Shown one piece after another: positions 19,073-39,697 of a DNA stretch of 64,000 nucleotides; within the stretch, counting starts at the first letter, position 1; the number at the start of each line of letters is the position of its first letter. The position numbers were made by a program, and so were the translations under genes. Source of the DNA: Stakelama flava. GTDB lineage: Bacteria > Pseudomonadota > Alphaproteobacteria > Sphingomonadales > Sphingomonadaceae. The stretch spans positions 371,338-435,337 of the forward strand of contig NZ_JAHWZX010000001.1 of NCBI RefSeq assembly GCF_019351405.1. The letters are read 5' to 3'. Under the pieces are notes generated by a model. It was not told the origin of the DNA. It did no database searches and worked only from the letters and a program-made list of their open reading frames with translations.

Positions 19073-20119
19073 ATGACCGATGAATCGCCGATAAGTCGCG
19101 CGTCGCAAGACGGCGGTGTCGGATCGCTCGGGCGGATCGGCTTCGGGTCCGCGCCGATCGGCAATCTGTACGAAATCATGTCCGATGACGCGGCACAGGC
19201 GACGCTCGACGCGGCATGGCAGTCCGGCCTGCGATATTTCGACACCGCGCCGCATTACGGGTTCGGCCTTTCCGAAAAGCGTGTCGGCGCAGCGCTTGCC
19301 CGGCTCGACCGTCAGGAAAGCGCGATCGTCTCGACAAAGGTGGGCCGCCGCCTCGCCCCCGCTCCCGATGCCGACCTGTCAGCGCTGCGTCAGGGTTTCG
19401 TGTCTCCCGAACCGGTCGAGAGTGTTTTCGATTACAGCTATGACGGCGTCCTTCGCTCCTACGAAGCGAGCCGGAAGCGACTGAAACGCGATTCGATCGA
19501 CATTCTTTACGCGCACGATCTGGGCCGCATGACGCATGGCGACGAGCACCCGGCCCGGCTGCGCGAATTTCTGGACGGCGGCTATCGCGCGATGCGTGAA
19601 CTGCGTGACGGTGGCGCGGTCGCCGCGATCGGCCTGGGCGTCAACGAAACGGCGGTGTGCGAAGAGGTGCTTGGCCATGCCGAGCTTGACCTGATCCTGC
19701 TCGCCGGTCGCTATACCTTGCTCGAACAGGATGCGCTCGACCAGTTCCTGCCGCTCTGCGCGCGGCGTGACGTGCGGATCGTGCTGGGCGGGCCATTCAA
19801 TTCGGGCATTCTCGCCACCGGCGTGCGTGGTGGCGGCGACCTGCATTACAATTATGAACCCGCACCGCGCGACGTTATCGCCCGCGTCGCCGCCATTGAA
19901 GAGGTGTGCGCCCTGCACGGCGTTCCGCTCGCCGCTGCGGCGCTGCAATTCCCGCTTGCCCATCCGCAGGTGGCCAGCGTCATCCCCGGCACGCGCACCC
20001 CCGAACAGCTTCGTGCCGCGCTCGACCTGCTCGACACCTCCATTCCGGCCGAATGCTGGCGCATGCTTCGCGACCGCTCGCTGATCCGCGCCGACGCGCC
20101 GCTTCCCCTACCCCAATAA
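19073..20119 (+). CDS. Aldo/keto reductase, probable L-fucose (D-threo-aldose) 1-dehydrogenase
   Basis: A 348-residue AKR. The catalytic tetrad is visible as Asp57 and Tyr62 (FDTAPHYGFGLSE), Lys89 (STKVG) and His148 (DILYAHDLGR). NLYEIMSDDAAQATLDAAW and GPFNSGILATG fit the D-threo-aldose 1-dehydrogenase / L-fucose dehydrogenase subfamily, which oxidises L-fucose to L-fuconolactone with NAD(P). It heads an operon with a 2-keto-3-deoxy-fuconate dehydrogenase-like SDR, a mutarotase and FucP, which supports the call. The start has a weak ribosome-binding site; an in-frame ATG at 18947 seems too far upstream. Confidence 0.82.
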   Translation: MTDESPISRASQDGGVGSLGRIGFGSAPIGNLYEIMSDDAAQATLDAAWQSGLRYFDTAPHYGFGLSEKRVGAALARLDRQESAIVSTKVGRRLAPAPDADLSALRQGFVSPEPVESVFDYSYDGVLRSYEASRKRLKRDSIDILYAHDLGRMTHGDEHPARLREFLDGGYRAMRELRDGGAVAAIGLGVNETAVCEEVLGHAELDLILLAGRYTLLEQDALDQFLPLCARRDVRIVLGGPFNSGILATGVRGGGDLHYNYEPAPRDVIARVAAIEEVCALHGVPLAAAALQFPLAHPQVASVIPGTRTPEQLRAALDLLDTSIPAECWRMLRDRSLIRADAPLPLPQ

Positions 20120-20133
20120 AAGGACTCATCCCG

Positions 20134-20868
20134 ATGGCAGGACGCCTTGACGGCAAAATCGCAATCATCACCGCCGCAGGACAAGGCATCGGCCGCGCGA
20201 GCGCCGAATTATTCGCCCGCGAAGGCGCGAAGGTTCATGCGATCGACATCAATAGCGACGCGCTCGGGGCGCTTCAGGGTTGCGAAACGCATGTCCTCGA
20301 CCTGCTCGATGGCGATGGGATCAGCGCGCTTGCGGAGCGAATCGGAACCGTAGACATCCTTTTCAACTGCGCCGGCTTCGTTCATTCCGGCACCATTCTT
20401 GATTGCGATGAAGCTGCTTATGACTTTTCCTTCGACCTGAATGTGAAGGCCGCGTACCGCATGATCCGCGCTTTTCTACCTGCAATGATCGAAAAGGGCG
20501 GCGGGTCGATCGTGAATATGTCGTCGGTGGCAAGCTCGGTTATCGCGGTGCCCGGTCGGTTCGTCTATGGCGCGTCGAAGGCGGCTGTTATCGGACTTAC
20601 CAAGGCGGTGGCCGCCGACCATGTCAAACAGGGCATACGCTGCAATGCGATCTGCCCCGGCACCGTGCAGTCCCCCTCACTCGAAGAGCGCATGGCTGCG
20701 ACCGGCGATGCCGACAAGGCGCGTGCCGATTTCGTCGCACGGCAGCCGATGGGCCGACTGGGCACCGCGAACGAAATCGCGCAACTGGCGCTATATCTTG
20801 CCAGCGACGAATCGGGTTACACCACCGGCACGGCCAATGTCATCGACGGCGGCTGGGCGAACACATGA
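20134..20868 (+). CDS. SDR oxidoreductase, probable 2-keto-3-deoxy-L-fuconate dehydrogenase
   Basis: A 244-residue classical SDR with a cofactor loop TAAGQGIGRAS (about 13-23), acidic DIN at the end of beta-2 (NAD preference), NCAG, Ser130/131 and the Tyr145-x3-Lys149 pair (YGASK). FNCAGFVHSGTILDCDE is very similar to the BDH2/DHRS6-like group that includes bacterial 2-keto-3-deoxy-L-fuconate 4-dehydrogenases. The predicted product is 2,4-diketo-3-deoxy-L-fuconate, the substrate for the FAH-family hydrolase encoded nearby. It sits 14 bases after the dehydrogenase gene and overlaps the mutarotase by 4 bases. Confidence 0.85.
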   Translation: MAGRLDGKIAIITAAGQGIGRASAELFAREGAKVHAIDINSDALGALQGCETHVLDLLDGDGISALAERIGTVDILFNCAGFVHSGTILDCDEAAYDFSFDLNVKAAYRMIRAFLPAMIEKGGGSIVNMSSVASSVIAVPGRFVYGASKAAVIGLTKAVAADHVKQGIRCNAICPGTVQSPSLEERMAATGDADKARADFVARQPMGRLGTANEIAQLALYLASDESGYTTGTANVIDGGWANT

Positions 20869-21230
20869 CCCGGCGCGTCTGCCTTGCGCTCGATCTGGTC
20901 GATGACGCCGATCTGATCGCTGAATATGAACGATGGCATCGGGTGGGCAACACCCCGCCCGAAATCATTCGCTCGATCCGCGAGGCGGGAATCGAAAATA
21001 TGGAAATTTTCCGCGCAGGTGATCGGATGGTGATGGTGATGGACGTAAACGAACGCTTCGATCCCGCGGCCAAGACGGCCGCCGACGCTGCCAACCCCCA
21101 TGTCGCGGCATGGGAAGCGCGGATGCGGCAGTTTCAAAGGGCAATACCCGCCGCTGCTCCCGGGGGCGGCTGGACCGAAATGGCGCGCATATTTCGCCTG
21201 ATCGACCATGACGAAACAGGCTCGCAATAG
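20865..21230 (+). CDS. L-rhamnose mutarotase family protein, probable L-fucose mutarotase
   Basis: A 121-residue RhaM/YiiL-type protein: CLALDLVDDADLIAEYERWHR with the conserved His, then AGIENMEIFRAGDRMVMVMDV. Such enzymes interconvert alpha and beta anomers of 6-deoxy sugars; in this operon L-fucose is the likely substrate. It overlaps the SDR stop by 4 bases (ATGA) and precedes fucP by 47 bases. Confidence 0.85.
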   Translation: MTRRVCLALDLVDDADLIAEYERWHRVGNTPPEIIRSIREAGIENMEIFRAGDRMVMVMDVNERFDPAAKTAADAANPHVAAWEARMRQFQRAIPAAAPGGGWTEMARIFRLIDHDETGSQ

Positions 21231-21277
21231 AATATCCGCATTCGAAAACGGGGCGGGCAGACAAGGAGAGGATCATC

Positions 21278-22612
21278 GTGGCTATTCCCGAACAGGATGC
21301 CGGGGAAAACCGGCGAGGCGCATTTATCGCGCCCGGCTATCTTGCCGGATTCATCCTCGTCACCAGCCTGTTTTTTCTCTGGGCGCTCGCCAATAATTTC
21401 AACGACATCCTGATTCGACAGTTTCAGAAAGCGCTCGACCTCAACCGCGCCGAAGCGGGGTTCATCCAGTTCGTTTTCTATATCGGCTATTTCACCATGG
21501 CGCTTCCCGCCGGGATGGTGATGCGCCGGTTCGGATATCGCGCAGGCATCCTCGCCGGACTGGGGCTGTACGCGGTGGGCGCGCTGCTATTCTATCCGGC
21601 GGCCGAGATACGGGTATATGCCGCCTTTCTGGCCGCATTGTTCGTCATCGCGGCAGGCGCGGCGTTTCTGGAAACCGCGGCCAATCCCTATATCGTCGCA
21701 TTCGGCCACCCCTCGCGCGCCGAACAGCGGCTCAACTTCGCACAGGCGTTCAACGGGTTCGGCGGATTTCTGGCGCCGATCATCGGCGGCGTTTTCATCT
21801 TTTCGGGCATAGAACATTCCAAGGCCGATATCGCCGCGATGCCGCCCGCACAGCAGGCTGCCTATCGCGCGACGGAAGCGCAGATGGTGCAAGGCCCCTA
21901 TCTGGTGCTGGCCGTACTGGTCGTGCTGATCGCTATCGCGGTCGCCATGGTCCGCCTGCCGCACATCGAACCACCCGGACGCGCAAGCGACGCCCACGGC
22001 AAGCGCCCTTCGCGGTTCGCCATATTGCGCGAACCGGCGCTGGCCGGAGCGGTTACAGCGCAGTTTTTCAATATCGGTGCGCAGGTCGGCGTGTGGAGCT
22101 TCTTCATCGACTTTGTGAAGGAAGTGACGCCGACCACCCCGGAACGCACCGCCGCATTCCTGCTGTCGTTCAGCCTTGCCCTGTTCATGGCCGGGCGCTT
22201 CATCGGCGCGGCGCTGATGCAACGGATTGCCGCCACGCGCCTGTTGACGTTCTTCGCGCTGGCCGGAGTGTTCCTCGCCGCCCTCGCCGCGCTTACCGGC
22301 GGATGGATCGCGGTGGGTGCGCTGACGCTGACCAGCCTGTTCATGTCGATCATGTTCCCCACGATTTTCTCGCTGGGGGTAAAGGATCTGGGCGAACGCG
22401 CCATGCTGGGCGCGCCGTTGATCGTCATGGCGATCATCGGCGGCGCCGTATTCCCGCCGATGATGGGGTTTATTTCACAGGCGATCGGCGCGCTTCAGCC
22501 GGTCATGCTGGTTCCCGCGTTATGCTTAGCGGTGGTCGCCTTTTATGCAACGCGCGCGCATCGCGCCGCTGGCAGGGTGGAAACACCGCCCGCCGCCTCG
22601 CCGCTGCACTGA
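21278..22612 (+). CDS. fucP: FucP family L-fucose:H+ symporter
   Basis: A 444-residue MFS permease of the FHS family with twelve predicted helices. The N-terminal LVTSLFFLWALANNFNDILI and the ETAANPYI and FNGFGGFLAPIIGG motifs are diagnostic of FucP-like sugar symporters. It would move L-fucose released in the periplasm across the inner membrane. The start is GTG at 21278 with AAGGAGAG upstream. It is the last gene of the fucose operon and is followed by a hairpin shared with the convergent FAH gene. Confidence 0.88.
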   Translation: MAIPEQDAGENRRGAFIAPGYLAGFILVTSLFFLWALANNFNDILIRQFQKALDLNRAEAGFIQFVFYIGYFTMALPAGMVMRRFGYRAGILAGLGLYAVGALLFYPAAEIRVYAAFLAALFVIAAGAAFLETAANPYIVAFGHPSRAEQRLNFAQAFNGFGGFLAPIIGGVFIFSGIEHSKADIAAMPPAQQAAYRATEAQMVQGPYLVLAVLVVLIAIAVAMVRLPHIEPPGRASDAHGKRPSRFAILREPALAGAVTAQFFNIGAQVGVWSFFIDFVKEVTPTTPERTAAFLLSFSLALFMAGRFIGAALMQRIAATRLLTFFALAGVFLAALAALTGGWIAVGALTLTSLFMSIMFPTIFSLGVKDLGERAMLGAPLIVMAIIGGAVFPPMMGFISQAIGALQPVMLVPALCLAVVAFYATRAHRAAGRVETPPAASPLH

Positions 22613-22620
22613 TCAGAAAA

Positions 22621-22661
22621 GAAAGGGACCATCGCCGACGGTGTCTAACGATGGACCTTTC
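22621..22661. terminator. Hairpin between convergent fucP and FAH hydrolase genes
   Basis: GAAAGG and CCATCG (22621-22634) pair with CGATGG and CCTTTC (22649-22661), with a small internal bulge. The structure sits between convergent transcription units, so a bidirectional terminator is likely. There is no long T-tract. Confidence 0.45.
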
Positions 22662-22730: not shown

Positions 22731-23579
22731 TTATCGGCTCCAGGCGACGAATTCCTGTCCCTGCTCGCCCAGCTTTTCGATGCCCAGACGCACCGTATCG
22801 CCAGCCTTCAAATAGCGTTCGGGCTTTTGCCCCATCCCTACCCCCGGCGGGGTGCCGGTGGTGATGATGTCGCCCGGTTCCAGCACCATGAATTCGCTGA
22901 GATAGCTGACGATCTTCGCAACCGAAAAGATCATCGTGCGCGAATTGCCGGTCTGCATCCGTTCGCCGTTCACCTCCAGCCACATGTCGAGATTCTGCGG
23001 ATCGCCCACCTCATCGCCGGTGACCAGCCAGGGGCCGACGGGGCCGAAGGTGGCGCACCCCTTTCCCTTGTCCCAGGTGCCGCCGCGCGACAGCTGAAAA
23101 TCGCGTTCCGATACATCGTTGATGACGCAATAGCCCGCTACATGGTTCAGCGCGTCGGCTTCCTCGACATAGCTTGCGCGGCTGCCGATCACGACGCCCA
23201 GTTCGACTTCCCAGTCGGTCTTCACCGATCCGCGCGGGATGATGACCGGATCATTCGGCCCGGCAAGACACGACACCGCCTTGGTGAACATCACCGGCTC
23301 TTGCGGGATCGGCAGGTTCGATTCGGCGGCATGATCGGCATAGTTCAGCCCGATGGCGATGAACTGACGCGTACCGGTGAACGGCAGGCCATAGCGCTGC
23401 TCCCCTTCGACCCGCGGCAGGTCCGACGGATCGATATCGGCCAGCTTTTTCAGGTTTTCAGGCGACAAGCCATCGGCAGTCAGATCGGCCAGCACGCCCG
23501 ACAAGTCGCGGATTGCGCCATCGGCATCGATCATTCCGGGCTTTTCGGCGCCCGGCGCGCCGTAACGGCATAATTTCAT
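22731..23579 (-). CDS. FAH family hydrolase, probable 2,4-diketo-3-deoxy-L-fuconate hydrolase
   Basis: A 282-residue fumarylacetoacetate hydrolase-fold enzyme. Metal-binding acids are visible in DWEVELGVVIG (Glu124, Glu126) and CVINDVSERDFQ (Asp155), with TGTPPGVGMGQ near the C-terminus. The N-terminal MKLCRYGAPGAEKPGMID fits the hydrolases that split 2,4-diketo-3-deoxy sugar acids into pyruvate and a hydroxy acid, here L-lactate. It is coupled by a 4-base overlap to the SGNH esterase upstream and faces the fucose operon. Confidence 0.85.
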   Translation of the reverse strand: MKLCRYGAPGAEKPGMIDADGAIRDLSGVLADLTADGLSPENLKKLADIDPSDLPRVEGEQRYGLPFTGTRQFIAIGLNYADHAAESNLPIPQEPVMFTKAVSCLAGPNDPVIIPRGSVKTDWEVELGVVIGSRASYVEEADALNHVAGYCVINDVSERDFQLSRGGTWDKGKGCATFGPVGPWLVTGDEVGDPQNLDMWLEVNGERMQTGNSRTMIFSVAKIVSYLSEFMVLEPGDIITTGTPPGVGMGQKPERYLKAGDTVRLGIEKLGEQGQEFVAWSR

Positions 23580-24430
23580 CGGTCGGATTTCCTTTCATGC
23601 GAATGGACCAACGCCTGATCGATCGCGGCCTGCGCGATCGGCGCCATGATGGCGTATCCGGCGCGCAACGGGTGGACGCCGTCCACCGTAAGCTCGCGTT
23701 TCATCAGGCCGTTCTGGTCGACCAGCGCCGAATAATAATCGGCATAGGCATAGCCCCTGCCATGGCAGAACCCCTTCAGCCAGCTGTTCAGCTGCCGCAA
23801 TTCGGCGGGGTCGCGCTCCTTCAGAACGTCGTGCGCCTGTTCGCTGTAATTGTTGACCGGCAACAGTGATCCGAACACCACGGCGATGCCGTGCCGATCG
23901 GCGATGTCGGCCATTGCCTCATAATTCTGCTCGATCGTTTCGGGCGTTTCCTTCTGCAGAAATCCCTGCACGTCGTTCACCCCGGCCAGAATGACCACCA
24001 CCCGCGGGTGAAGCTGAACCACGTCCTGCTGAAAACGCAGCACCATCTGCGCGGTCACCTGGCTGCCGATCCCGCGGTTGATATAGGGTTTGTCGCCGAA
24101 ATTGCGGTGAAGGTCCCAGCGATCGGTGATCGAATCGCCCATGAACACGACTCGATCCTCATCCGGCTTTGGCGGGGCCAGCTTGCGGTTGGCAGGGATG
24201 TACAGATACCGCTCGCCGAAATCCTGCATCAGGCTGGGCACCAGCTTCTCGCGGAACGGACCAAGCCAGGGCCCCCAATCCTTTTCCTTCACTTCCCGGC
24301 GCTCCGGCGAATTCTGAAACACGGGCTCGGCCGCCTTTGGGGTAGAATCACCTTGTGTCGCCGCCAGCGCCTGCGGCGTAAATGCGAGCGCTACCGCACA
24401 CAGCGCTCCGCCGATTTTTCTACCCGTCAT
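23576..24430 (-). CDS. SGNH/GDSL esterase with signal peptide (candidate polysaccharide acetylesterase)
   Basis: From the ATG at 24430 the 284-residue protein starts with a signal peptide (KIGGALCAVALAFTPQALA). SGNH blocks are present: GDS with Ser100 in VVFMGDSITDRW, the Gly of block II in INRGIGSQ, Asn152 in AGVNDV and Asp250/His253 in VDGVHP. A fold of this kind in a xyloglucan locus suggests removal of O-acetyl groups in the periplasm. It starts the minus operon with the FAH gene and diverges from the TonB receptor. Confidence 0.82.
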   Translation of the reverse strand: MTGRKIGGALCAVALAFTPQALAATQGDSTPKAAEPVFQNSPERREVKEKDWGPWLGPFREKLVPSLMQDFGERYLYIPANRKLAPPKPDEDRVVFMGDSITDRWDLHRNFGDKPYINRGIGSQVTAQMVLRFQQDVVQLHPRVVVILAGVNDVQGFLQKETPETIEQNYEAMADIADRHGIAVVFGSLLPVNNYSEQAHDVLKERDPAELRQLNSWLKGFCHGRGYAYADYYSALVDQNGLMKRELTVDGVHPLRAGYAIMAPIAQAAIDQALVHSHERKSDR

Positions 24431-24661
24431 GTTCGCTCCTCTCTCCACCGCATTTCCCGGCGAACCGCCAATTTCCAACGGTGGCAACCCCAAATGCAAG
24501 GTTGCGCTACCATCGGTCACTAGTGGGTGCAAATTTCATATATGAATTGGTGTCGAAATGTTTTAGGAGGGCTGCGCATCGGGGCGAGTTGCGCCGATCA
24601 CAACAATACGATGCGGCACCGCCCCGACGGAATTCGCACGTAAGTTCAAGGGAGACGGATA
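24431..24661. promoter_or_regulatory. Divergent promoter region with palindrome TTCATATATGAA
   Basis: This 231-base gap separates the esterase-FAH operon (minus) from the TonB receptor (plus), so it must drive both. A perfect 12-bp palindrome, TTCATATATGAA, lies at 24535-24546 in an AT-rich pocket roughly halfway. It is a good operator or promoter-core candidate. I did not find an identical copy at the other promoters of the locus. Confidence 0.45.
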
Positions 24662-27559
24662 GTGATCCAGGGCAATGCGCGCTCACGTCGAGCGCATTCG
24701 AAACTGACTGCCACGGCCTCGCTGGTGGCGCTGCTGGCCATGGGCTGGAGCTCGACCGCCTTCGCGCAGCAAAGCGACACCACCGACGATCAGAGCCAGA
24801 ATGATCAGCAGCAGTCGCAGGCGACCGGCAGCGGAACCACCGCTCCCAGCGGCGATCAGGACGCGACGGCGCAGACCGACGGCGTCGCGGGTCAGCCCGC
24901 ATCCGATATCGTGGTCACCGGCGTGCGCGCCAGCCTTCAGTCGGCGCAGAACATCAAGCGCAACGCGGGACAGATCGTCGATTCGGTCGTCGCCGAAGAC
25001 ATCGGCAAGCTGCCCGATCGCAACGTCGCAGAAGCGCTGCAGCGGATTACCGGCGTCCAGATCCAACGCAGCTATGGCGAGGGAAGCTCGATCGCCATTC
25101 GCGGGCTCAGCCAGGTTCGCACCGAAATCAACGGACGCGACGTGTTCACCGCGAATGGCGGGCGCACGCTCAGCCTGGAAGATGTGCCGTCCGAACTGCT
25201 GGCGGGAATCGATGTTTACAAAAACCCGTCGGCCGAACTGATCGAAGGCGGCATTGGCGGCCTCGTCAACCTGCGAACGCGCAAGCCCTTCGACTTTGAC
25301 GGCTTCAAGCTGTCGGCGAGCGGCGGCATCAATTATTATGACCTGTACGGCAAGAGCAAGCCGCAGGCCAACATCCTCGTGTCCGATCGCTGGGATACCG
25401 GAATCGGCGAAATCGGCGTGCTCGTCGATCTGGCGTATCAGAAGACGGCATTCCGTCAGGATCAGATTTCCAGCCAGCCCTTCTACCTGCTCGACGAAAG
25501 CGACGAAACCGACGCTGCGATCGCCGCCGGACTGGGCCGCACGGGGCAGGACACCTATCTCGCGCACGGCGTGGGCATCGGTCAGTATCTTGGCGATCGC
25601 CGCCGGCTTGGCGCCGATGTGGCCGTGCAATGGCGCCCGACCGATACTCTGCAATTCACCGGCGAATATATTCGTTCGGACTACAAGTTCCGCTACGGCG
25701 ATTACAGCTATTTCGCCTATACCGGCGATGCGACCATCACCCCGGACTATACGCAGCCTTTCAGTTTCGACGATGACGGCAATTTCCGCAGCGGCACGTT
25801 CGTCAACGTGCCGGTGAACGCGAATACCAGCCTGGAAACGCGCAATTCGGTTACCAATGACTATTCGCTGCACGGCGTCTGGAACCCCTCCTCCGATCTC
25901 GAAGTGAGCGGCGATTTCCAGTATATTCGCGGCACGACCGACAGCGAGCGTTCGATCGTCATCCTGTCTTCCACCGCCGAGCGGCTTTATACTTCGGTGG
26001 GCGACGGTGTTCCGACGATGCTCATTTACGGCGATGGCGACGCCAGCAACGGCGACGGGTCGACCACCAATTTCGACAATTACCGCACCGGCGGCGGGTA
26101 TCTCGACCATATCGAACATTCCGTCGGCACCGAATATGCTGGCCGCTTCGATGCGAAGTATCAGCTTCACGGCGGTTTCCTTCGCGCGCTTGAAGGCGGT
26201 TTGCGGTACACTGACCGCTCTGCGGTGACCGACAGCAGCACCTATGCCTATTACGGCATCGCAACCGCGCTGCCCGATTCGCTGCTGGAGGTTCGTCCGT
26301 TCCGCGGCGACCTGTATCGCGGTTTCGACGGCGTCCCGACCGGCGCTGTTTTCTTTAACCGGAACATAGTGCTGGACTATGATGCCACGCGTGAAGCGCT
26401 GGCCCCCTATGTTTCGGAATCGCAGCAAGAAGCCCTGCTCGACGGCGTGAGCTATGTTCCCAGCGACCGGAATACGCAGGGCGAAAAAACCTATACCGCT
26501 TACGGACTGGTCCGCTTCGGCAGTGACGATTTCGCGGTTCCGTTCGAGGGCAATATCGGTGTCCGCGTTGTCCGGACCGAAGTAAGCACCGCCGGCTATC
26601 AGGTCCGCACGCCGCAGGTGCAGGTCGGCACCGATGACGACGGCAATCCGATCTATGGCAACGGCGATGTCGAATATCAGCCGATCAGCGTCGATTCGAA
26701 CTATACCAAGGCGCTGCCCAGCCTGAACCTGACCTTCCACCTGACGCCCGAATTGCAGTTGCGGCTGGCGGCGTCCGAGGCGCTTTCACGCCCCAGCTTC
26801 ACGCAGCTCAACCCGAACATCAACATCGTCGAATATAATCCCACGAATTCGCAACGCACTGCCTCTTCGGGGAACCCAGATCTCCGTCCGCTGACCGCCA
26901 AACAGCTTGACGCGAGCCTAGAATATTACTTCGCCGATACCGGTATGATCTATGGCGCGGCGTTCTATAAGAAGGTCGACGGGTTCATCGCCAATGTCGT
27001 TACGCAGGAAACCTATACCTTCGGCGACAGCAGCTACACCTATGATGTGACGCGCCCGGTCAACGGCGATAATGGCAAGATCAAAGGCTTCGAAATCGGC
27101 GGCAATACCTTTTTCGACTTCCTTCCCGGGTGGCTGTCGGGCTTCGGTGCGCAGGCGAACTTCACCTATGTCGACAGCAAGGCGCCCAGCCCGCAAGCCA
27201 CCGACAATGAAGGCAACCAGCTTCTGGTGCCGCTCGAACTGCTGTCGAAATACAGCTACAACCTTGTCGGCATTTACGACAAAGGCGCGGTTTCGGCGCG
27301 CGTCGCGTATAACTGGCGCAGCAAATATGTCGTGACGACGCAGGGCAACGGATCGGGTAACTTGCCCATCTTCAACGCGCCGCGTGGTCAGCTCGATGCC
27401 TCGTTCACCTATACGGTCAACCCGCATTTCGCGCTCACGGTGGACGGGACGAACCTGACCGATACCGAAAACCGCACCTATTACGGCATCGAAAGCCGTC
27501 CGCAGTCGTCGGTGCTGAACGATCGCCGGGTCAGCATCACCGCCCGCATCACCTACTAA
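24662..27559 (+). CDS. TonB-dependent receptor, candidate xyloglucan oligosaccharide transporter
   Basis: A 965-residue outer-membrane receptor starting with GTG at 24662 after GGGAG. It has a signal peptide ending TAFAQQ, a Gln/Asp-rich linker (about 36-75), the TonB box DIVVTG, a plug domain (about 85-210: NVAEALQRITGVQIQR, EVNGRD-like EINGRDVFTA) and a long barrel ending with ...RVSITARITY. This pattern belongs to the Xanthomonas/Caulobacter-type TonB receptors that import plant oligosaccharides. The surrounding GH74, GH31, GH35 and GH29 genes make xyloglucan oligosaccharides the likely cargo; the substrate is inferred. A strong terminator follows. Confidence 0.88.
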   Translation: MIQGNARSRRAHSKLTATASLVALLAMGWSSTAFAQQSDTTDDQSQNDQQQSQATGSGTTAPSGDQDATAQTDGVAGQPASDIVVTGVRASLQSAQNIKRNAGQIVDSVVAEDIGKLPDRNVAEALQRITGVQIQRSYGEGSSIAIRGLSQVRTEINGRDVFTANGGRTLSLEDVPSELLAGIDVYKNPSAELIEGGIGGLVNLRTRKPFDFDGFKLSASGGINYYDLYGKSKPQANILVSDRWDTGIGEIGVLVDLAYQKTAFRQDQISSQPFYLLDESDETDAAIAAGLGRTGQDTYLAHGVGIGQYLGDRRRLGADVAVQWRPTDTLQFTGEYIRSDYKFRYGDYSYFAYTGDATITPDYTQPFSFDDDGNFRSGTFVNVPVNANTSLETRNSVTNDYSLHGVWNPSSDLEVSGDFQYIRGTTDSERSIVILSSTAERLYTSVGDGVPTMLIYGDGDASNGDGSTTNFDNYRTGGGYLDHIEHSVGTEYAGRFDAKYQLHGGFLRALEGGLRYTDRSAVTDSSTYAYYGIATALPDSLLEVRPFRGDLYRGFDGVPTGAVFFNRNIVLDYDATREALAPYVSESQQEALLDGVSYVPSDRNTQGEKTYTAYGLVRFGSDDFAVPFEGNIGVRVVRTEVSTAGYQVRTPQVQVGTDDDGNPIYGNGDVEYQPISVDSNYTKALPSLNLTFHLTPELQLRLAASEALSRPSFTQLNPNINIVEYNPTNSQRTASSGNPDLRPLTAKQLDASLEYYFADTGMIYGAAFYKKVDGFIANVVTQETYTFGDSSYTYDVTRPVNGDNGKIKGFEIGGNTFFDFLPGWLSGFGAQANFTYVDSKAPSPQATDNEGNQLLVPLELLSKYSYNLVGIYDKGAVSARVAYNWRSKYVVTTQGNGSGNLPIFNAPRGQLDASFTYTVNPHFALTVDGTNLTDTENRTYYGIESRPQSSVLNDRRVSITARITY

Positions 27560-30606: not shown

Positions 30607-30656
30607 ATCATCCGTCCTCGTCGTCCAGCCCGCGCGCTCGCCGGGCAATTTTGTTT

Positions 30657-32364: not shown

Positions 32365-32509
32365 TACGCATACCCGTGCGACCCTCTTTCAACAAAGGTA
32401 GAATTTCAAGTATAAATGACTGCTTCACGTATGGGACAGGCTGTCGAATCCCTTTGCAACGATCGTTGGATAAAGCGATGGCGAAGTGAAAGAAGGTGAT
32501 TGGCTGAAC

Positions 32510-33271: not shown

Positions 33272-33289
33272 CCGACGCGATTCACCAGC

Positions 33290-35524
33290 TTAACCGGCCG
33301 GATCGCCATACACGATGCCGCGCCCGTCGGTGCCGACATAGACGCGCCCGAAACGTTTCGGATCGCCGATGATCAACCGGAAGCGCATCCCCCATTGGTG
33401 CGCATCGTCGTTGATCCGCATCCAGTGCGCCCCCCCGTCGATCGATCGCCACAGCGCGTTCAACCCATCCTTTTTGCCGATGGCGTAGACCGCAGGCCAG
33501 TTGCTGCCGGGCGCGCCCTTGCCCAGCCCGTAATAAGCGACCGACAGCGCGCCGCTCGATACGCGCCAATGTTCGCCGAAATCGGTTGAACGGTATAAAC
33601 GTTCCCCGATGCGCAGCCACAGTACCCCCGCCCTGCCCGGCACCGCACGCATCGGGTTCTGCGCTTCCCGCCACGTCGTTTTCGCAGCCGACAGGTCGGC
33701 GGGAAGCCCGGTTCCGGCAACGCGATGAAACGTCGCCCCGCCGTCATCGCTGCGCATCAGCCGATTGGCGGCGAAGTCGATCGCGTAAAAGCGTTTCGGG
33801 TCCGCCTTGTCGGCGGTGGGGCGGCTGCCGACCGGCATACCATTTGCCCGCTGCCAGCTTCGCCCCCGGTCGCGGGTCAGCATCGGCAGGTTTGTCCCGG
33901 CAAGGAAGGTGCCGCCATCCGCCGAAACCACGACGGGCGCATCGCCGGTGCGAATCGGCGGCGGTCCGTCGATCGGCTCGGACGGCCGAACAATGTCGGG
34001 TGTCAGCGGCTGCCAGCTACGCCCGTAATCGTCAGACCATGCAAGCGAAGCGCCGGGCACCAGCCGGGTATGCGTGCTCCCGCTGCGCACCATGATGTTC
34101 GGCGCAATTCCCCCATAATCGAGCGTGTTGGTGTTGGTGAGATACGGATTGGTGTGCACCGTCGGCGGAGAAACCGTCAGATCGTCGTGCCGGAAACCCG
34201 CAATGTCGCCAAAGCCGGAAACCAGCGGCGGCCCGTCCGCTGGGCTGATCATGGTGATGATCGCGGTCTGTTCGATTCCCTTGGTCCAGGGAAGCCATTG
34301 CATCCGCCCGGCCTTGTCGAACTGCCGCGTGGCGTAGAGCGTCGCACCGGTTGTATAGGCGGCATGTCCGGCATCGAACGGATCGATGGCAAGTCCCGCG
34401 ATCCAGTGTCCGAAATCGGCATGGTCACCGTCAAGGTCCAGGAACGGCGTTGCCGACACGTCGCGCACCGAGCGGCGGAACAGTTCATCCCAATGGCCGC
34501 CGCCATCGCTCGACCGCCATACCGTATCGACCGGGTGATAGCGGTCGATCGTGCTCACTGCGATCACGTTCGGATCCTGCGACGATACTGCAACGCCCAT
34601 ATACCCGCCGACGGGAGCATCGGCGCGCTGGTCGGGAGTTACGTCGCGCCATGTTCCTCGGCGAAGATCGTAGCGCCACACCGCGCCGCGCGTGACGCCA
34701 TTCGGGCCGATCGCGTCGGAATAGGTGATGGTCGCGACATGATCGCCGCCGATGACCGCCTTTACCGGAAGAAGGTCGGTGGCGGGACCGCCGGGAACGA
34801 CATGCCAGCTTGCTCCCCCGTCCTGCGACAGGAACAGATGATGCTTGCCCGGATCGGCACTGCCGACCAGCATACGACCCGGCGTTGCAGGATCGAACAC
34901 GACGAAACTCAGCCCGCCGTGCGTCGCGCGGCCTTCTTTCGGAATACCCAGCCCCGGCAACGGAAAGCCATCGACCTTTCGCCAGTGCGCCGCGCGATCA
35001 TCGCTGCGCCACAGCCCCTGATGGCGCGAGCCGAAGAAAAGCGTCGCGCGATGCGCAGGATCGATCGCCAGTCGCTCGCCAAGCCCGCGACCGTCTTCAT
35101 TACCGCCCATTTTGAACGGCACCGGCACGATCTTCCAATGCGCGCCGCGATCGTCCGAACGCATCATCGCTGCGGGAGAGCGCCACGACATGCCCGTCGC
35201 CAGATACACCCGGTCGGGATCGACCGGATCGGGCGCAACGCTTTCGACGCCCATATAGCTGCCTTCAGCCATGCCGTCTTCTAGCGGAATCCAGCGCCCT
35301 GCACGGTGATCCCACCGATAGGCACCACCCATATCGGTCCGCAGATAGGCAAGGCCGCGCTCGGCCCGACTGAAAACAATGCCGGGCGCAAAACCGCCGC
35401 CGCCCACGCGAACATTATGCCATATATAGGGTATCGCGCTTTGCCCGCGCGCCGTTACGGCATTCGCGGTCAAAAGCGGCATTAGCGCCAGACCGAGCGC
35501 AAATATGGGTCGAAATTCTCTCAT
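33290..35524 (-). CDS. GH74 endo-xyloglucanase
   Basis: The 744-residue protein has a signal peptide (FALGLALMPLLTANAVTARG) and a double seven-bladed propeller rich in SDDRGAHW, SQDGGASW and SSDGGGHW Asp-box repeats. The two catalytic acids are Asp64 in RTDMGGAYRWD and Asp440 in FGDIAGFRHDD, matching known GH74 active sites. GH74 enzymes cut the beta-1,4-glucan backbone of xyloglucan, producing oligosaccharides for uptake. No carbohydrate-binding module is attached. It ends 18 bases from the convergent IclR gene and diverges from the esterase-fucosidase operon. Confidence 0.92.
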   Translation of the reverse strand: MREFRPIFALGLALMPLLTANAVTARGQSAIPYIWHNVRVGGGGFAPGIVFSRAERGLAYLRTDMGGAYRWDHRAGRWIPLEDGMAEGSYMGVESVAPDPVDPDRVYLATGMSWRSPAAMMRSDDRGAHWKIVPVPFKMGGNEDGRGLGERLAIDPAHRATLFFGSRHQGLWRSDDRAAHWRKVDGFPLPGLGIPKEGRATHGGLSFVVFDPATPGRMLVGSADPGKHHLFLSQDGGASWHVVPGGPATDLLPVKAVIGGDHVATITYSDAIGPNGVTRGAVWRYDLRRGTWRDVTPDQRADAPVGGYMGVAVSSQDPNVIAVSTIDRYHPVDTVWRSSDGGGHWDELFRRSVRDVSATPFLDLDGDHADFGHWIAGLAIDPFDAGHAAYTTGATLYATRQFDKAGRMQWLPWTKGIEQTAIITMISPADGPPLVSGFGDIAGFRHDDLTVSPPTVHTNPYLTNTNTLDYGGIAPNIMVRSGSTHTRLVPGASLAWSDDYGRSWQPLTPDIVRPSEPIDGPPPIRTGDAPVVVSADGGTFLAGTNLPMLTRDRGRSWQRANGMPVGSRPTADKADPKRFYAIDFAANRLMRSDDGGATFHRVAGTGLPADLSAAKTTWREAQNPMRAVPGRAGVLWLRIGERLYRSTDFGEHWRVSSGALSVAYYGLGKGAPGSNWPAVYAIGKKDGLNALWRSIDGGAHWMRINDDAHQWGMRFRLIIGDPKRFGRVYVGTDGRGIVYGDPAG

Positions 35525-35537
35525 ACGCCCCTTTCGA

Positions 35538-35554
35538 TGCACTTTACTGGTGCA
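35538..35554. promoter_or_regulatory. Inverted repeat TGCAC-N7-GTGCA in the GH74/esterase divergent promoter
   Basis: Perfect 5-bp arms 14 bases upstream of the GH74 start, in the 153-base gap to the divergent esterase gene. It would overlap the GH74 leader. Function as an operator is only suggested by symmetry and position. Confidence 0.3.
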
Positions 35555-35677
35555 ATGCGTGTTTATATCCGAAACTGGCATTTCCTTATTGCTTCGGCAA
35601 CGCTAACATCGCGCCCAAGCCGCGCCAGCCGGTGCCCAAGGATTGCATGCGCGACAGGTTCGCCAGAGAGGATTGAA

Positions 35678-36514
35678 ATGACCGACCTTTCCCCCCCGCA
35701 CTTCCGCAACGTGCGCGCATCGTTTTGCGCCGCACTGCTTGCCTGCGCAGCGCTGCCCACCGTGGCGACGGCGCAAACCATGGTGGACGGCGATCCCCAT
35801 GCCGACGACCCGTCGGGGATTGTCGACAATCCCTGCCCGCAGCATGCCATGCCTACCGATGGCACGGGCTGGCATATGTGGAACCTGCACATGCTGACCC
35901 GCGATTTTGGCCAGCTTTGCCGCTATCGCGCCGCCAATTCCGACTTGAAGGCATCGGGCAAGCCGGTGCGCGTCGTCTTCATGGGCGATTCGATCACCGA
36001 CAACTGGATCAACCTCGACAAGGAATTCTTCGTCGATGGCCGCGTCGATCGCGGCATCAGCGGGCAGACCACGCCGCAAATGCTGGTGCGGTTCCGCGAG
36101 GACGTGATCGACCTCCACCCGCAGGCGGTTCATATCATGGCAGGCACCAATGACATTGCGGGAAACACCGGCGCCAGCACGCTGGCAACGGTTCAGGGCA
36201 ATATCCGCACCATGGCCGAACTGGCAAAGGCGCACGGGATAAAGGTCATTCTGGGGTCGATCCCGCCCGCCGGGCAGTTCCCCTGGGCCAAGGACAAGAA
36301 TCCCGTCCCAGTCATCAAGGCGATGAACGACTGGCTGCGCGGTTATGCGGCCCAAAACGGCTTCACCTATGTCGATTATCACGCCGCGATGACCACCCCC
36401 GAAGGCGCGATGAAGGATGGGTTGTCGAGCGACGGCGTGCATCCCGCGGCAAAGGGATATGCGGTGATGGAACCGCTGACCCTCGCCGCCATCCGCAAGA
36501 CGCTGGGTCAATAA
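35678..36514 (+). CDS. SGNH/GDSL esterase with signal peptide (second candidate acetylesterase)
   Basis: A 278-residue protein with a signal peptide (ASFCAALLACAALPTVATAQ). SGNH residues are Ser105 in VVFMGDSITDNW, Asn158 in MAGTNDIAGN and Asp252/His255 in SDGVHP. GAGGA lies before the ATG at 35678. It is related in design to the esterase at 23576 but diverged, with a different N-terminal region containing four Cys. It heads the operon with the GH29 fucosidase and the UxaA pair and may deacetylate xyloglucan side chains. Confidence 0.82.
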   Translation: MTDLSPPHFRNVRASFCAALLACAALPTVATAQTMVDGDPHADDPSGIVDNPCPQHAMPTDGTGWHMWNLHMLTRDFGQLCRYRAANSDLKASGKPVRVVFMGDSITDNWINLDKEFFVDGRVDRGISGQTTPQMLVRFREDVIDLHPQAVHIMAGTNDIAGNTGASTLATVQGNIRTMAELAKAHGIKVILGSIPPAGQFPWAKDKNPVPVIKAMNDWLRGYAAQNGFTYVDYHAAMTTPEGAMKDGLSSDGVHPAAKGYAVMEPLTLAAIRKTLGQ

Positions 36515-36561
36515 AGAGGCGCGCCCGATCGGGTGGACACAGAAAAACGGGGAGCAGGCGT

Positions 36562-38202
36562 ATGGTGATGAAGCTGGGCAGACGATCGGTGCTGGCGGGA
36601 ATGGCGGCTGCGGGAATGGTGCGCCGTGCTATGGCGAAGGGACCGCTTGGCATGCAGACCGGGCCGGTGCAGCCAAACTGGCCCTCGCTGGTCGATAATT
36701 ACCGCTATCCCGACTGGTTCCGCGATGCGAAGCTGGGCCTGTGGGCGCATTGGGGGCCGCAATCGGTCCCCGAACAGGGCGATTGGTACGGCCGCTTCAT
36801 GTATATGCAGGGCCATCCGATGTACGATCATCATCTGAAGACCTATGGCCATCCTTCGCAAACCGGCTTCATGGACATTCAGAACAAATGGACGGCCGAT
36901 CGCTGGGACCCCGACGCCCTGATCGCGCGGTATAAAAAGGCGGGGGCAAAATATTTCGTCGCGCTCGCATGCCATCACGACAATCTCGACTGTTATGACA
37001 GCGCTTATCAGCCGTGGAATTCGCTTCGTGTCGGCCCGAAAAAGGATGTCGTCGGAACATGGGAAAAGGCGGCGCGCAAGGCGGGGCTTCGCTTCGGCGT
37101 ATCCAATCACGCGGCGCATAGCTGGCACTGGTATCAACCCGCCTATGCCTATGATCCCGAAGGGCCGATGAAGGGCGCTCGCTACGACGCCTATCGCCTG
37201 ACAAAGGCGGATGGCGCGGGAAAATGGTGGGACGGGCTGGACCCGCATGATCTTTACACCGGTCGCCACATGGTCGCCCCCGACGGCATCGACAGCATCA
37301 AGGCGATGGACAAATGGCACGCCGATCATGACGGCGAATGGATGGAGCACGGCCCGGCGAACGATCCGGCCTATGTCTCCAAATGGCTGATGCGGCAGAT
37401 TGATCTGGTGCAGAAATACAAACCCGACCTTGTCTATTTCGACGATTACGGCCTGCCGTTCGGCTCCGCGGGTCTGGAGGCGGTTGCCGATTATTACAAC
37501 CGGTCGATCGACTGGCACGGCAAGATCGACGTGGTGCTCACCGCCAAGCAATTGAAGCCATGGGAGCGCTTTGGCGTGGTTCAGGCGGTGGAGCGCGGTT
37601 TTGCCGACCGGATCTGGGATGAACCATGGCAGACCGGCACCTGTATCGGCGACTGGTTCTACAATGTCGCACGGTTGAACGACCATAGCTACAAGACCGC
37701 TGAACAGGTAATCCAGCGACTTTCCGACATCGTTTCGAAGAACGGCAACCTGCTATTGTCGATTCCCCAGCCCGGCGACGGCAGCATCGATTCCGACGAA
37801 GAGCGCATCCTCGACCGCATGTCCGACTGGATGGCGGTCAATGGAGAAGCCATCTTCGCCTCCCGCCCCTGGCACAGCTATGGCGAAGGGCCGACGGTGC
37901 TGGAAACCGGCATGCAGAATGAGGACAAGGCAAAGCCCTTCACCGCGCGGGACATCCGGTTCACCACCAGGGGCGACACGCTGTATGCCATTTTCCTCGG
38001 CTGGCCGCGCGGCACGGCGTCGGTCGCCTCGCTCGGCGCGAAGGCGTTGGGCAACCGGGGGATCGAACGCGTCACGCTGCTGGGCGGAGGCGAGGTGAAC
38101 CATCGCCAGGATGGCGATGCGCTGCACATCGATTTTCCGGCCAACGCGAAAAACGGGTTCGTCCCGGTACTTCGCCTTAATGGACGGGGGCTGACTGCGT
38201 GA
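36562..38202 (+). CDS. GH29 alpha-L-fucosidase with Tat-like signal
   Basis: A 546-residue GH29 enzyme. The N-terminus LGRRSVLAGMAAAGM is a Tat-type twin-arginine signal. The barrel shows FRDAKLGLWAHWGPQSVPE, HHDNLDCYDS and the nucleophile region DLVYFDDYGLPF (Asp294 or 295), followed by a beta-sandwich C-terminus. It would release L-fucose, which the locus can import (FucP) and degrade. Xyloglucan fucose is alpha-1,2-linked, more often a GH95 substrate, so linkage preference is an open question. It is coupled to the UxaA-type genes by a GTGA overlap. Confidence 0.88.
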   Translation: MVMKLGRRSVLAGMAAAGMVRRAMAKGPLGMQTGPVQPNWPSLVDNYRYPDWFRDAKLGLWAHWGPQSVPEQGDWYGRFMYMQGHPMYDHHLKTYGHPSQTGFMDIQNKWTADRWDPDALIARYKKAGAKYFVALACHHDNLDCYDSAYQPWNSLRVGPKKDVVGTWEKAARKAGLRFGVSNHAAHSWHWYQPAYAYDPEGPMKGARYDAYRLTKADGAGKWWDGLDPHDLYTGRHMVAPDGIDSIKAMDKWHADHDGEWMEHGPANDPAYVSKWLMRQIDLVQKYKPDLVYFDDYGLPFGSAGLEAVADYYNRSIDWHGKIDVVLTAKQLKPWERFGVVQAVERGFADRIWDEPWQTGTCIGDWFYNVARLNDHSYKTAEQVIQRLSDIVSKNGNLLLSIPQPGDGSIDSDEERILDRMSDWMAVNGEAIFASRPWHSYGEGPTVLETGMQNEDKAKPFTARDIRFTTRGDTLYAIFLGWPRGTASVASLGAKALGNRGIERVTLLGGGEVNHRQDGDALHIDFPANAKNGFVPVLRLNGRGLTA

Positions 38203-38498
38203 GCCTTGTCCTGCTCCACCCCGATGACAATATCCTGATCGTCACCGCGCCGATCGCAGCCGGTGATATCGTCACCGTGGAAGGCGCGCCGATCCCCGCG
38301 GCGACGCCCATCGGCATCGGTCACAAGGTTGCGCGGCGTGCGTTGGACGCGGGCGACAAGGTATTGAAATACGGCGCGCCGATCGGGTCGATGACGGCGG
38401 CGGTAAACGCCGGCGACCATATTCACATGCACAATATGAAGAGCGATTACATCCCCAGCCATACGCGGGATGCGATCGACCAAAGGAACGGTTCATGA
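38199..38498 (+). CDS. UxaA-family dehydratase small subunit (SAF domain)
   Basis: A 99-residue protein formed by a single SAF-type domain, as in the N-terminus of altronate dehydratase UxaA: HPDDNILIVTAPIAAGD, IPIGHKVA-like IGIGHKVARRALDAGDKVLKYGAPIG and the metal-site HIHMHN. As in SuyA or the small subunits of split sugar acid dehydratases, it should pair with the large subunit that follows. The GTG start overlaps the fucosidase stop and the end overlaps the large subunit by 4 bases. Substrate inference is given with the large subunit. Confidence 0.85.
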   Translation: MSLVLLHPDDNILIVTAPIAAGDIVTVEGAPIPAATPIGIGHKVARRALDAGDKVLKYGAPIGSMTAAVNAGDHIHMHNMKSDYIPSHTRDAIDQRNGS

Positions 38499-39697
38499 TC
38501 CCAGCCTGGCAACGCAGCGACGGCCGCAAGGGCATCCGCAACGTGATTGCGGTGTGCTATCTGGTCGAATGCGCGCATCATGTCGCACGACGCATCGTCG
38601 ACAAGGCCGACCGGGCCGATGTCCAGTTGATCGGCTTTCCCGGCTGCTATCCCAACAGCTATGCCGACAAGATGATGAAGGCGATCGCCACTCACCCCAA
38701 TCTGGGCGGGCTGGTGATCGTTTCGCTTGGATGCGAAAGCTTCAATCGCGAAGGTCTTGCGCGCGCCGCCGAAAAGAGCGGTCGCCCGGTCGAAACACTG
38801 GTGATTCAGGAAGTCGGCGGCACTGCGGCGACCATCGAAGCCGGGCTGGCGGCGGTTGACCGCGTGCGGACTGAGGCCGACCGCGCCGAGCGCACGACGA
38901 TGGCAATCGACGAACTCGTCATCGGCACCATCTGCGGCGGATCGGACGGGACCAGCGGCATCACCGCCAACCCCGCCGTCGGCAGGGCGTTTGACCGGCT
39001 GGTCGAAGAAGGCGCGACCTGCATTTTCGAAGAGACCGGCGAACTTGTCGGATGCGAAGCGATCATGGCCGATCGCGCGGTGACCCCCGAACTTGGGCGC
39101 GAACTGATGGCCACGGTGGAAAAGGCCGAACGCTATTACACGGTCATGGGCTTTGGCAGCTTCGCCCCCGGCAATGCGGAGGGCGGGCTGACGACGCAGG
39201 AAGAAAAATCGATGGGCGCCTATTCCAAATCGGGCAGTTCGCCGATTTCCGGCATCATCCGCCCGGCGGAGGTTCCGCCCTCCAACGGGCTGTATCTTCT
39301 AGACGTCGTACCCGACGGCGAACCGCGCTTCGGCTTTCCCAACATTTCGGACAATGCCGAAATCGTCGAGCTGATCGCCTGCGGCTCGCACATCGTGCTG
39401 TTCACCACCGGACGCGGTTCGGTGGTCGGGTCCGCAATCTCCCCGGTCATCAAAATCTGCGCGAACCCGGAAACCGCGCGTCGTCTGGCCGCGGATATGG
39501 ACGTCAACGCCGGCCGCATCCTTGACGGCGAAGCGAGCATTGATGAGGTCGGAACCGAAATCTACGAACGCACGCTTGCCGTTGCCGGCGGGCAGCAGAG
39601 CGTGTCCGAAGCGCTGGGCCATCAGGAATTTATCCTGACCTATAAAAGCTTCGAACCCACCGGTCCCGCATGCCTGCCGCGCGCCAGGGTTGCCTGA
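38495..39697 (+). CDS. UxaA-family dehydratase large subunit, candidate L-fuconate dehydratase
   Basis: A 400-residue C-terminal-type UxaA/GarD domain protein: SDGRKGIRNVIAVCYLVECA, FPGCYPNSYADKMM, LGCES, GTICGGSDGTSGITANPA and the Cys/Glu-rich FEETGELVGCEAIM that lines the iron site. The family dehydrates sugar acids such as D-altronate or D-galactarate. The fucose pathway here lacks any other dehydratase for L-fuconate and the gene is in one operon with the fucosidase, so L-fuconate is the likely substrate. That specificity is inferred. Altronate is the main alternative, but no hexuronate genes are nearby. Confidence 0.82.
   Translation: MIPAWQRSDGRKGIRNVIAVCYLVECAHHVARRIVDKADRADVQLIGFPGCYPNSYADKMMKAIATHPNLGGLVIVSLGCESFNREGLARAAEKSGRPVETLVIQEVGGTAATIEAGLAAVDRVRTEADRAERTTMAIDELVIGTICGGSDGTSGITANPAVGRAFDRLVEEGATCIFEETGELVGCEAIMADRAVTPELGRELMATVEKAERYYTVMGFGSFAPGNAEGGLTTQEEKSMGAYSKSGSSPISGIIRPAEVPPSNGLYLLDVVPDGEPRFGFPNISDNAEIVELIACGSHIVLFTTGRGSVVGSAISPVIKICANPETARRLAADMDVNAGRILDGEASIDEVGTEIYERTLAVAGGQQSVSEALGHQEFILTYKSFEPTGPACLPRARVA

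Follow-up and report, generated by a model that had tools for sequence, protein, structure and literature searches.

How might a bacterium that breaks down plant xyloglucan also make use of the L-fucose that caps it? This question is raised by a block of genes in Stakelama flava (family Sphingomonadaceae), found in a 64-kb window (the whole stretch of DNA analysed here, C1:371338-435337 of the 3.39-Mb genome, labelled G000). The block spans 20.6 kb (window positions 19073-39697) and comprises 15 genes. On the plus strand are an aldo/keto reductase (AKR), a short-chain dehydrogenase/reductase (SDR), FucM and FucP; these are followed by an FAA-hydrolase (FAH) and a first SGNH hydrolase (SGNH1) on the minus strand, a TonB-dependent receptor (TBDT; plus), two glycoside hydrolases (GH) of families GH31 and GH35 (minus), an IclR-family regulator (plus), a GH74 (minus), and finally a second SGNH hydrolase (SGNH2), a GH29, a SAF-like gene and UxaA (plus). 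A preliminary description of this DNA had listed GH74, GH35, GH31 with a PA14 domain, GH29, the two SGNH hydrolases, the TonB receptor, IclR and FucP, and each is present where it had been placed. Based on gene content, relatives, synteny, recurrence in other genomes and the positions of a promoter element, we consider it fairly probable that the block is a xyloglucan locus that took in a fucose cassette together with its regulator, and that it runs as one regulon.

Solved relatives of the encoded proteins were searched with phmmer against PDB. The GH74 (33290..35581, minus strand, likely start near 35524), a predicted endo-xyloglucanase, aligns over nearly its full length with 4lgn (475 bits, residues 50-763; deposited as "Cellulose-binding, family II") and with 2cn2, named a beta-1,4-xyloglucan hydrolase (463 bits, residues 44-762). 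The GH35 (30657..32291, minus strand) is of the Bgl35A type (DUF5597), a predicted xyloglucan beta-galactosidase related to 3u7v (651 bits), 8fa4, 7kmn and 5jaw/4d1i, which is Bgl35A itself (557 bits). For the GH31 (27724..30759, minus strand, likely start near 30606), a predicted xyloglucan alpha-xylosidase, the solved relatives are the alpha-xylosidases 2xvg (Xyl31A, 1071 bits, with an alignment that covers the PA14 domain) and 7kmp (1045 bits); we take these two to be Cellvibrio and Xanthomonas enzymes. Aspartates in the GH74 stretches YLRTDMGG and GFGDIAGF and the GH31 stretches DATEPDIH and WSGDVASRW are shared with relatives in the alignments, as are the glutamates of the GH35 stretches QPENE and VPEIGN, and all are presumably catalytic. 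The earlier proposal that GH74, GH31 and GH35 form a xyloglucan set is thus borne out, in that all three match solved xyloglucan enzymes. Together with the TBDT, the predicted endo-xyloglucanase gene and the Xyl31A/Bgl35A-type enzymes are the features by which we would recognise a xyloglucan utilization locus (XyGUL). The best GH35 relative, 3u7v, is a Caulobacter protein (PMC4285296).

Judged by family and context, the block also holds genes for the mutarotase, dehydrogenase, dehydratase, 4-dehydrogenase and hydrolase of a non-phosphorylating L-fucose route. The AKR (19073..20119, plus strand; PF00248, 159 bits) is predicted to be the L-fucose 1-dehydrogenase (FucA step); its nearest solved relatives are L-galactose dehydrogenases, and in cassettes it precedes the SAF-UxaA pair. 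NCBIfam gave no usable name for it or for SGNH1. For the SDR (20134..20868, plus strand), the predicted L-2-keto-3-deoxyfuconate 4-dehydrogenase (L-KDFDH; FucF step), the top PDB match is the Herbaspirillum huttiense L-KDFDH (8y11/8xwk, 320.9 bits; identifiers confirmed in PMC11199699), followed by 2ag5, human BDH2. The predicted FucM (20865..21230, plus strand), an L-rhamnose/L-fucose mutarotase of the RhaM family (PF05336, 89.2 bits, cut-off 23.4), is matched in 8 of 12 mapped UxaA stretches. A minus-strand frame at 20817-21227 was rejected as a gene: it has no Pfam match, and the plus-strand frame there is the mutarotase. FucP (21278..22612, plus strand) passes the L-fucose:H+ symporter model TIGR00885 (386.8 bits, cut-off 280.4) and fails PRK10133 (363.1 vs a cut-off of 427). 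The FAH (22731..23579, minus strand) is the predicted L-2,4-diketo-3-deoxyfuconate hydrolase (FucG step). Its nearest model is a 2,4-didehydro-3-deoxy-L-rhamnonate hydrolase, and it is 73% identical to a paralogue in the rhamnose route of the same genome. This likeness fits a fucose role, because by our own stereochemical reasoning the fucose and rhamnose intermediates become one compound after oxidation at C4, with only C5 retained. Four enzymes of L-fucose oxidation had been counted in the preliminary description, and these stand; the route enzymes number five, as the mutarotase gene had been overlooked. Its "full" fucose route holds for FucP, AKR, SDR, FAH and UxaA, which fit the route, but not for the lactonase step, discussed below.

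The dehydratase, of the UxaA type, is encoded by two genes: a SAF-like small part of 99 aa (38199..38498, plus strand), which corresponds to the N-terminal part of TIGR03248, and a UxaA/GarD large part of 400 aa (38495..39697, plus strand; PF20629, 276 bits), predicted to be the L-fuconate dehydratase (FucC step). Cysteines 26, 51, 80 and 147 of the large part are kept in 17 of 17 aligned rows (the window included); they are presumably the four conserved cysteines published for the UxaA/GarD superfamily. In the two plasmid records, of four examined, that are annotated, the SAF-UxaA pair adjoins fucP, an amidohydrolase and an AKR (Sphingomonas parapaucimobilis) or an L-rhamnose mutarotase, an SDR and an FAH (Ponticoccus). 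A two-part UxaA/GarD L-fuconate dehydratase had been predicted earlier from gene context in Paraburkholderia mimosarum (Watanabe and colleagues; PMC6336799, section 8). A FucD-type query found no match in the S. flava genome at E<=1e-120, and the four MR_MLE_C proteins above cut-off there correspond to L-rhamnonate dehydratase, ManD and, twice, a DgcA racemase model (below its cut-off). A module on contig C5 was considered as a second fucose route and rejected. We read it as a rhamnose route because its dehydratase reaches 735.9 bits on the L-rhamnonate dehydratase model, above the cut-off of 393, and it also has an L-rhamnose 1-dehydrogenase (445 bits, cut-off 400). This rhamnose-use region (C5:4483-9330 and C5:25159-28931; stretches L091 and L087) includes an FAH, an SDR and a lactonase-like gene as well, with GH29, GH42 and GH31 at its other end.

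The GH29 (36562..38202, plus strand; PF01120, 270.5 bits), with a twin-arginine-like leader recognised by eye, is a predicted alpha-L-fucosidase acting on xyloglucan side chains. Its nearest solved relative, 7snk/7ljj (303 bits), which we take to be BpGH29, is named both alpha-L-fucosidase and exo-alpha-L-galactosidase. A GH95 elsewhere in the genome was ruled out for the fucose step, as a profile search found no GH95 and two GH29 there. With neither GH95 nor a FucD-type enolase in the genome, GH29 and the split UxaA are left as the candidates for the fucosidase and dehydratase steps. GH95 was not treated as required for a XyGUL, because xyloglucan-active GH29 enzymes are known: Fusarium FgFCO1 (PMC7711723) and members of GH29 sequence clusters 2 and 3, of which cluster 2 includes the exo-alpha-L-galactosidase BpGH29 (PMC11189522). 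Across the 298 genomes of Sphingomonadaceae taken as the family, GH95 (counted above cut-off only, 20 of 21 matches, dropping genome G080) occurs in 10 of the 28 genomes with Xyl31A and lies within 25 kb of GH31 only in G125 and G183, and GH29 occurs in 39 of the 80 GH31 stretches compared (the best 80 of 397 relatives found). In this family, therefore, the role of GH95 is likely taken by GH29.

A different target is conceivable, namely other fucosylated or L-galactosylated material that bears beta-glucan, for example from algae or seagrass, with GH29 and AKR predicted to act on L-galactose as well. The exo-alpha-L-galactosidase relative of GH29 and the L-galactose dehydrogenases nearest the AKR favor it, as does a Paraburkholderia AKR that oxidises L-galactose and D-arabinose too (PMC6336799). 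However, xyloglucan-type enzymes are the closest relatives of GH74, GH31 (Xyl31A) and GH35 (Bgl35A) alike, and FucP scores above the cut-off of the fucose model; we regard this alternative as very unlikely.

Both SGNH hydrolases appear to be exported. SGNH1 (23576..24430, open frame to 24532, minus strand; PF13472, 78.2 bits) is a predicted deacetylase whose top PDB matches are GDSL proteins with no named activity; weaker matches include sialate O-acetylesterase, platelet-activating factor acetylhydrolase and acetyl xylan esterase. SGNH2 (35678..36514, open frame from 35537, plus strand; PF13472, 104.9 bits) adjoins GH29 and best matches 3p94 (203 bits), named only as a GDSL-like lipase. As to a relation with the modular CE20 xyloglucan acetylesterase XacXaeA, both proteins are of about 280 aa with one recognised domain, and none of the 28 PDB matches of SGNH2 or the 27 of SGNH1 is named a xyloglucan acetylesterase. 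SGNH2-type hydrolases (at least 55% identity) adjoin GH29 in 9 of 11 stretches, not counting the window, the exceptions being L041 and L044 (no GH29 shown); this links SGNH2 to the fucose-bearing tip of the side chain.

Chance assembly of the block is not an issue, because it is syntenic in Stakelama pacifica DSM 25059 (L002), the source of the nearest named GH31 relative (86%): 13 of the 14 genes queried are found there in the same order, at 64-94% identity. The genome search proposed in the preliminary description shows that the join recurs in other sphingomonads. UxaA, counted at 65% identity or more, occurs in 12 of the 298 genomes (3 of 15 matches were excluded, G057 at 48% and G045 and G046 at 41-43%), FucD in 9 (one shared with UxaA), and Xyl31A in 28. 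The enolase of other XyGULs, to which NCBIfam gave no name, was assigned to the FucD type by its PDB match (540.7 bits to 2hxt). Xyl31A is present in 11 of the 20 genomes with UxaA or FucD vs 17 of the 278 without (Fisher 6e-8), and without the six members of the genus itself the figures are 7 of 16 vs 17 of 276 (7e-5); these tests ignore phylogeny beyond that removal. Xyl31A and the fuconate dehydratase lie no more than 25 kb apart in 7 of the 11 co-occurring genomes, with UxaA in the S. flava genome, G280 and G016 and with FucD in G155, G125, G183 and G091. The remaining four (G029, G123, G225 and G045) have them on separate contigs or at a distance of 130 kb. Fucose genes were found in 10 of the 80 GH31 stretches. 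S. marina (L001) was scored among those without them, as its stretch ends before them; its cassette adjoins, in a 25-kb run of GH31-GH35-SGNH1-TBDT-SGNH2-GH29-FucP-lactonase-AKR-SAF-UxaA-SDR-FAH-FucM-IclR, and S. gilva has a similar block. In G280, of the same genus, the GH31 (C1:2196429-2199461) is reported with one internal stop codon.

The receptor and the regulator both resemble those of fucose cassettes. The TBDT (24662..27559, plus strand; PF00593, PF07715) falls in a clade of 11 receptors that holds its S. pacifica orthologue and all six fucose-cassette TBDTs of the tree, with SH-aLRT support of 100 (a quick tree without bootstrap, from which L058 was omitted as presumably one contig with G016). 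The remaining three members (L004, L013 and L020, of which L013 is the nearest row after L002) come from GH31 stretches without a detected cassette. In view of the tree, we rejected the idea of a single TBDT family common to every sphingomonad XyGUL seen. The IclR (32486..33271, plus strand; PF01614, PF09339) is closest to those of the joined loci L002 and G280 (75-77%), then to those of six fucose cassettes (53-59%). Four of these cassettes (G043, G123, G225 and G262) show no GH31 or GH35 in their stretch, and two (G029 and G217) show GH35. Such a regulator is present in 8 of the 10 stretches where GH31 and fucose genes occur together vs 2 of the 70 with GH31 but no fucose genes.

A 35-bp element of the rough form TCACnnRTGAAAnnnnnTTTcATATnTGAAAnnn was first seen by eye in promoter regions of the window and of S. 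pacifica. Its four sites in the window cover every transcription unit of the block: 18924..18958 (plus strand) before AKR-SDR-FucM-FucP, 24517..24551 (plus) between SGNH1-FAH and TBDT, 32400..32434 (minus) between GH35-GH31 and IclR, and 35544..35578 (plus) between GH74 and SGNH2-GH29-SAF-UxaA. A first matrix was built from three window sites and three S. pacifica sites, with the site at 32400..32434 not among them. It gave its best match in the IclR-TBDT spacer of G225, G043, G029, G123 and G217 and in the IclR-GH35 spacer of G280. When the AKR sites were omitted from this matrix, the AKR site scored 26.1 vs 10.4 for the next match outside the training regions; the corresponding values were 10.8 vs 9.1 for TBDT and 8.3 (with 13.7 for that region on the opposite strand) vs 6.4 for SGNH2. 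A second matrix was made from five sites in other genomes only (G225, G043, G029, G217 and G108, omitting the sites of G123 and G280, with none from G262). With these weights the TBDT, IclR, AKR and SGNH2 sites rank first to fourth in the 64 kb (23.7, 22.6, 13.8 and 13.7; next 10.9), and the S. pacifica promoter regions rank 1, 2, 3 and 5. None of 500 column-shuffled matrices placed all four window regions in the top six, and five placed three. A previously unused Sphingobium cassette scored 42.8 at its IclR-TBDT spacer; the cassette of G322 scored only 6.3, with its IclR-TBDT spacer outside the stretch taken. Xyloglucan loci unlinked to the cassette in G225, G123 and G029 reached at most 3.1, 0.3 and 8.1 with a 13-site matrix vs 32-37 for the window sites (themselves members of it). 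With this 13-site matrix, 10 of the 80 GH31 stretches score at least 17, seven of which have fucose genes, this IclR or, in S. marina, the adjoining cassette. By position and conservation the element is a putative operator of the IclR, and the whole gene set is probably switched on together.

The IclR and the element could instead control the fucose genes alone, with the elements before GH35 and GH74 serving only the divergent IclR and SGNH2. Indeed, cassette-type genes (IclR in one case, SGNH2-GH29-UxaA in the other) are arranged divergently from each xyloglucan promoter, and one site could serve one side only. We nevertheless consider this unlikely, as S. marina has one element upstream of GH35 and another upstream of its TonB receptor of 36% identity (24.1 each), neither gene being divergent from a fucose-route gene, and the S. 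gilva element (16.0) precedes a TBDT-GH35-GH31 run. A further alternative is that a xyloglucan locus and a fucose route are merely neighbours, each run independently by its own inducer. This would suit the four of eleven genomes in which Xyl31A and the dehydratase lie apart, and the element-like matches seen in some loci without fucose genes. It is decidedly unlikely for the S. flava block, where the genes are interleaved rather than abutting and the element stands in all four promoter regions, and in 7 of the 11 genomes the two are close together.

Several observations weigh against the joined, co-regulated locus that we favor. In S. pacifica there is no GH74 between IclR and SGNH2 (L002 6516-8325), the one queried gene missing from the syntenic block. 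Three assignments fall just below a cut-off: the FAH against NF053535 (484.8 vs 500 bits), the GH35 against NF051902 (479 vs 500) and the SAF piece against PF08666 (20.0 vs 21). An exo-alpha-L-galactosidase is among the nearest solved relatives of the GH29, and Cellvibrio and Xanthomonas take off xyloglucan fucose by GH95, not GH29 (PMC4285296, PMC8245568). Within the block there is no beta-glucosidase, no xylose or galactose route and no lactonase; in G016, G217, G225, G029 and S. marina a lactonase sits between FucP and AKR. The best lactonase candidate seen elsewhere in the S. flava genome (C3:42308-43153; L093) scores 147 bits to the L-fuconolactonase model, with a cut-off of 400. This COG3618-like gene adjoins an FMN-dependent dehydrogenase and part of a TRAP transporter, and is a possible source of the absent step.

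On the regulatory side, the best match of the first matrix falls in the IclR spacer in only 6 of 12 stretches, missing G016, G262, G253, L107 and L110, and in G108 it precedes a gene resembling AKR. The training sites of the five-site matrix had originally been located via the window and S. pacifica matrix, and for this reason a blind de novo search was also run on five cassette spacers with no window sequence, assuming one site per spacer and omitting G123 as a near-copy of G043. At widths of 16-24 it recovered TTTcATATTTCAT / ATGAAATATgAAA-type motifs inside the same sites of G225, G043, G029 and G217. Its motifs placed the TBDT and IclR regions of the window in the top five at width 24, and these plus the GH74/SGNH2 region at 28 and 32; at widths 16, 18 and 22 only the TBDT region was placed, at 20 none, and the AKR region never. 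Three stretches with no fucose gene or IclR of this kind reach intermediate scores with the 13-site matrix (L028, 22.3 near 1529; L027, 18.8 near 9438; L039, 17.6 near 13002). Nine more xyloglucan stretches in which UxaA is not linked were scored: G112, which is the L027 locus again, reaches 18.8, G052 reaches 15.0 and the rest 10.3 or less. The FucD-type fucose stretches L007 and L067 score only about 11 with that matrix (L007 gives 17.8 before its IclR with another), and the joined loci of Sphingosinicella terrae (L048/G319) and the metagenome-assembled genome G016 show neither this IclR in the stretch nor the element.

Taken together, the sequence relatives, the recurrence with two unrelated dehydratases and the single promoter element support the proposal, made in the preliminary description, that xyloglucan breakdown is joined here to oxidative L-fucose use; the cell would likely eat fucose-capped plant xyloglucan. 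In the predicted scheme, GH74 would act extracellularly to cleave the xyloglucan backbone, the oligosaccharides would enter through the TonB receptor, and the two SGNH hydrolases would strip acetyl groups. Trimming in the periplasm would fall to GH29 for terminal fucose, to GH35 for galactose and to GH31 for xylose. FucP would then import fucose, which would be converted to pyruvate and L-lactate by FucM, AKR, SAF-UxaA, SDR and FAH, with the lactone ring opened after the AKR step either spontaneously or by a lactonase encoded elsewhere. By binding the element in each of the four promoter regions, the IclR would govern the full set of 15 genes. Its signal is likely fucose or an intermediate of the fucose route, since regulator and route travel together. 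As to origin, the simplest and likely reading is that a fucose cassette (IclR, TBDT, FucP, route enzymes, GH29 and SGNH2) merged with a xyloglucan locus (GH35-GH31, SGNH1 and GH74) under one regulator. More tentatively, and with somewhat less than even confidence, we suggest that a fucose-sensing IclR captured the whole xyloglucan machine, such that the fucose cap signals fresh, fucosylated primary-wall xyloglucan and tamarind-like xyloglucan would not induce.

The block shares with the xyloglucan locus of Cellvibrio japonicus (PMC4285296) a Bgl35A-type GH35, a Xyl31A-type GH31, a TonB receptor and a model of periplasmic side-chain trimming. In contrast to that locus, which has GH95 and for which the available text mentions no fucose-use genes, it has GH29, an internal GH74, the fucose route, the IclR and two small SGNH hydrolases. 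The XyGUL of Xanthomonas citri (PMC8245568) is similar in its GH74, GH31, GH35, TonB receptors and esterase, and in having a side-chain sugar route adjoining; however, that route is for xylose (xylose isomerase and xylulokinase), not fucose, and the locus has GH95, CE20 and two TBDTs. The non-phosphorylating L-fucose route 3 has the same mutarotase, dehydrogenase, dehydratase, L-KDFDH and diketo-acid hydrolase steps (PMC11199699), whereas the block is without a lactonase, and in it AKR and the split UxaA replace the SDR dehydrogenase and the enolase-type dehydratase of Herbaspirillum (PMC6336799). The heteromeric UxaA/GarD of P. mimosarum is likewise a two-gene protein among fucose genes (PMC6336799); its function, like that of the window pair, is a prediction, and the window pair sits inside a xyloglucan locus. 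Similar in idea is FUR1 of the fungus Trichoderma reesei, an L-fucose-answering regulator that also drives wall-degrading enzymes, which was shown by experiment (PMC12370193), whereas the window regulator is a prediction. In a search of titles and abstract openings of open-licence literature, we found no paper joining a xyloglucan locus with a fucose route. New here are the recurrence of the join, the cassette-type TBDT and IclR, and the shared 35-bp element.

Some observations concern the surroundings of the block and its counterparts. On one side it borders a BCCT transporter (17262-19073), and directly downstream lies a chemotaxis pair (39734-43719), made up of a receptor in which PAS domains are repeated and a protein carrying three CheW domains; the CheW gene is also kept downstream in S. 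pacifica (56%). Tryptophan-halogenase-like genes (PF04820, 423.7 bits in L024) are found in 23 of the 80 GH31 stretches (e.g., L001, L006 and L024), with none in the window block, and they adjoin the TonB receptor in the stretches laid out (L001, L006, L030, L050, L053 and L058). A predicted oxidative D-xylose module, defined as at least two of a sugar transporter, an SMP-30 lactonase and an FAH-like gene, takes the place of the fucose route in L003, L012, L013, L015, L016, L019, L021, L022 and others. It occurs in 19 of the 80 stretches, with no overlap with those that have fucose genes, and the D-xylose dehydrogenase of L012 passes its model.

If our reading is correct, a split UxaA/GarD L-fuconate dehydratase and a GH29 xyloglucan fucosidase become directly testable. 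Polysaccharide loci would then grow by acquiring the catabolic route of a side-chain sugar together with its regulator. In sphingomonads the added route would be either fucose, with two unrelated dehydratases, or xylose, by the oxidative module, and never both in the GH31 stretches examined.

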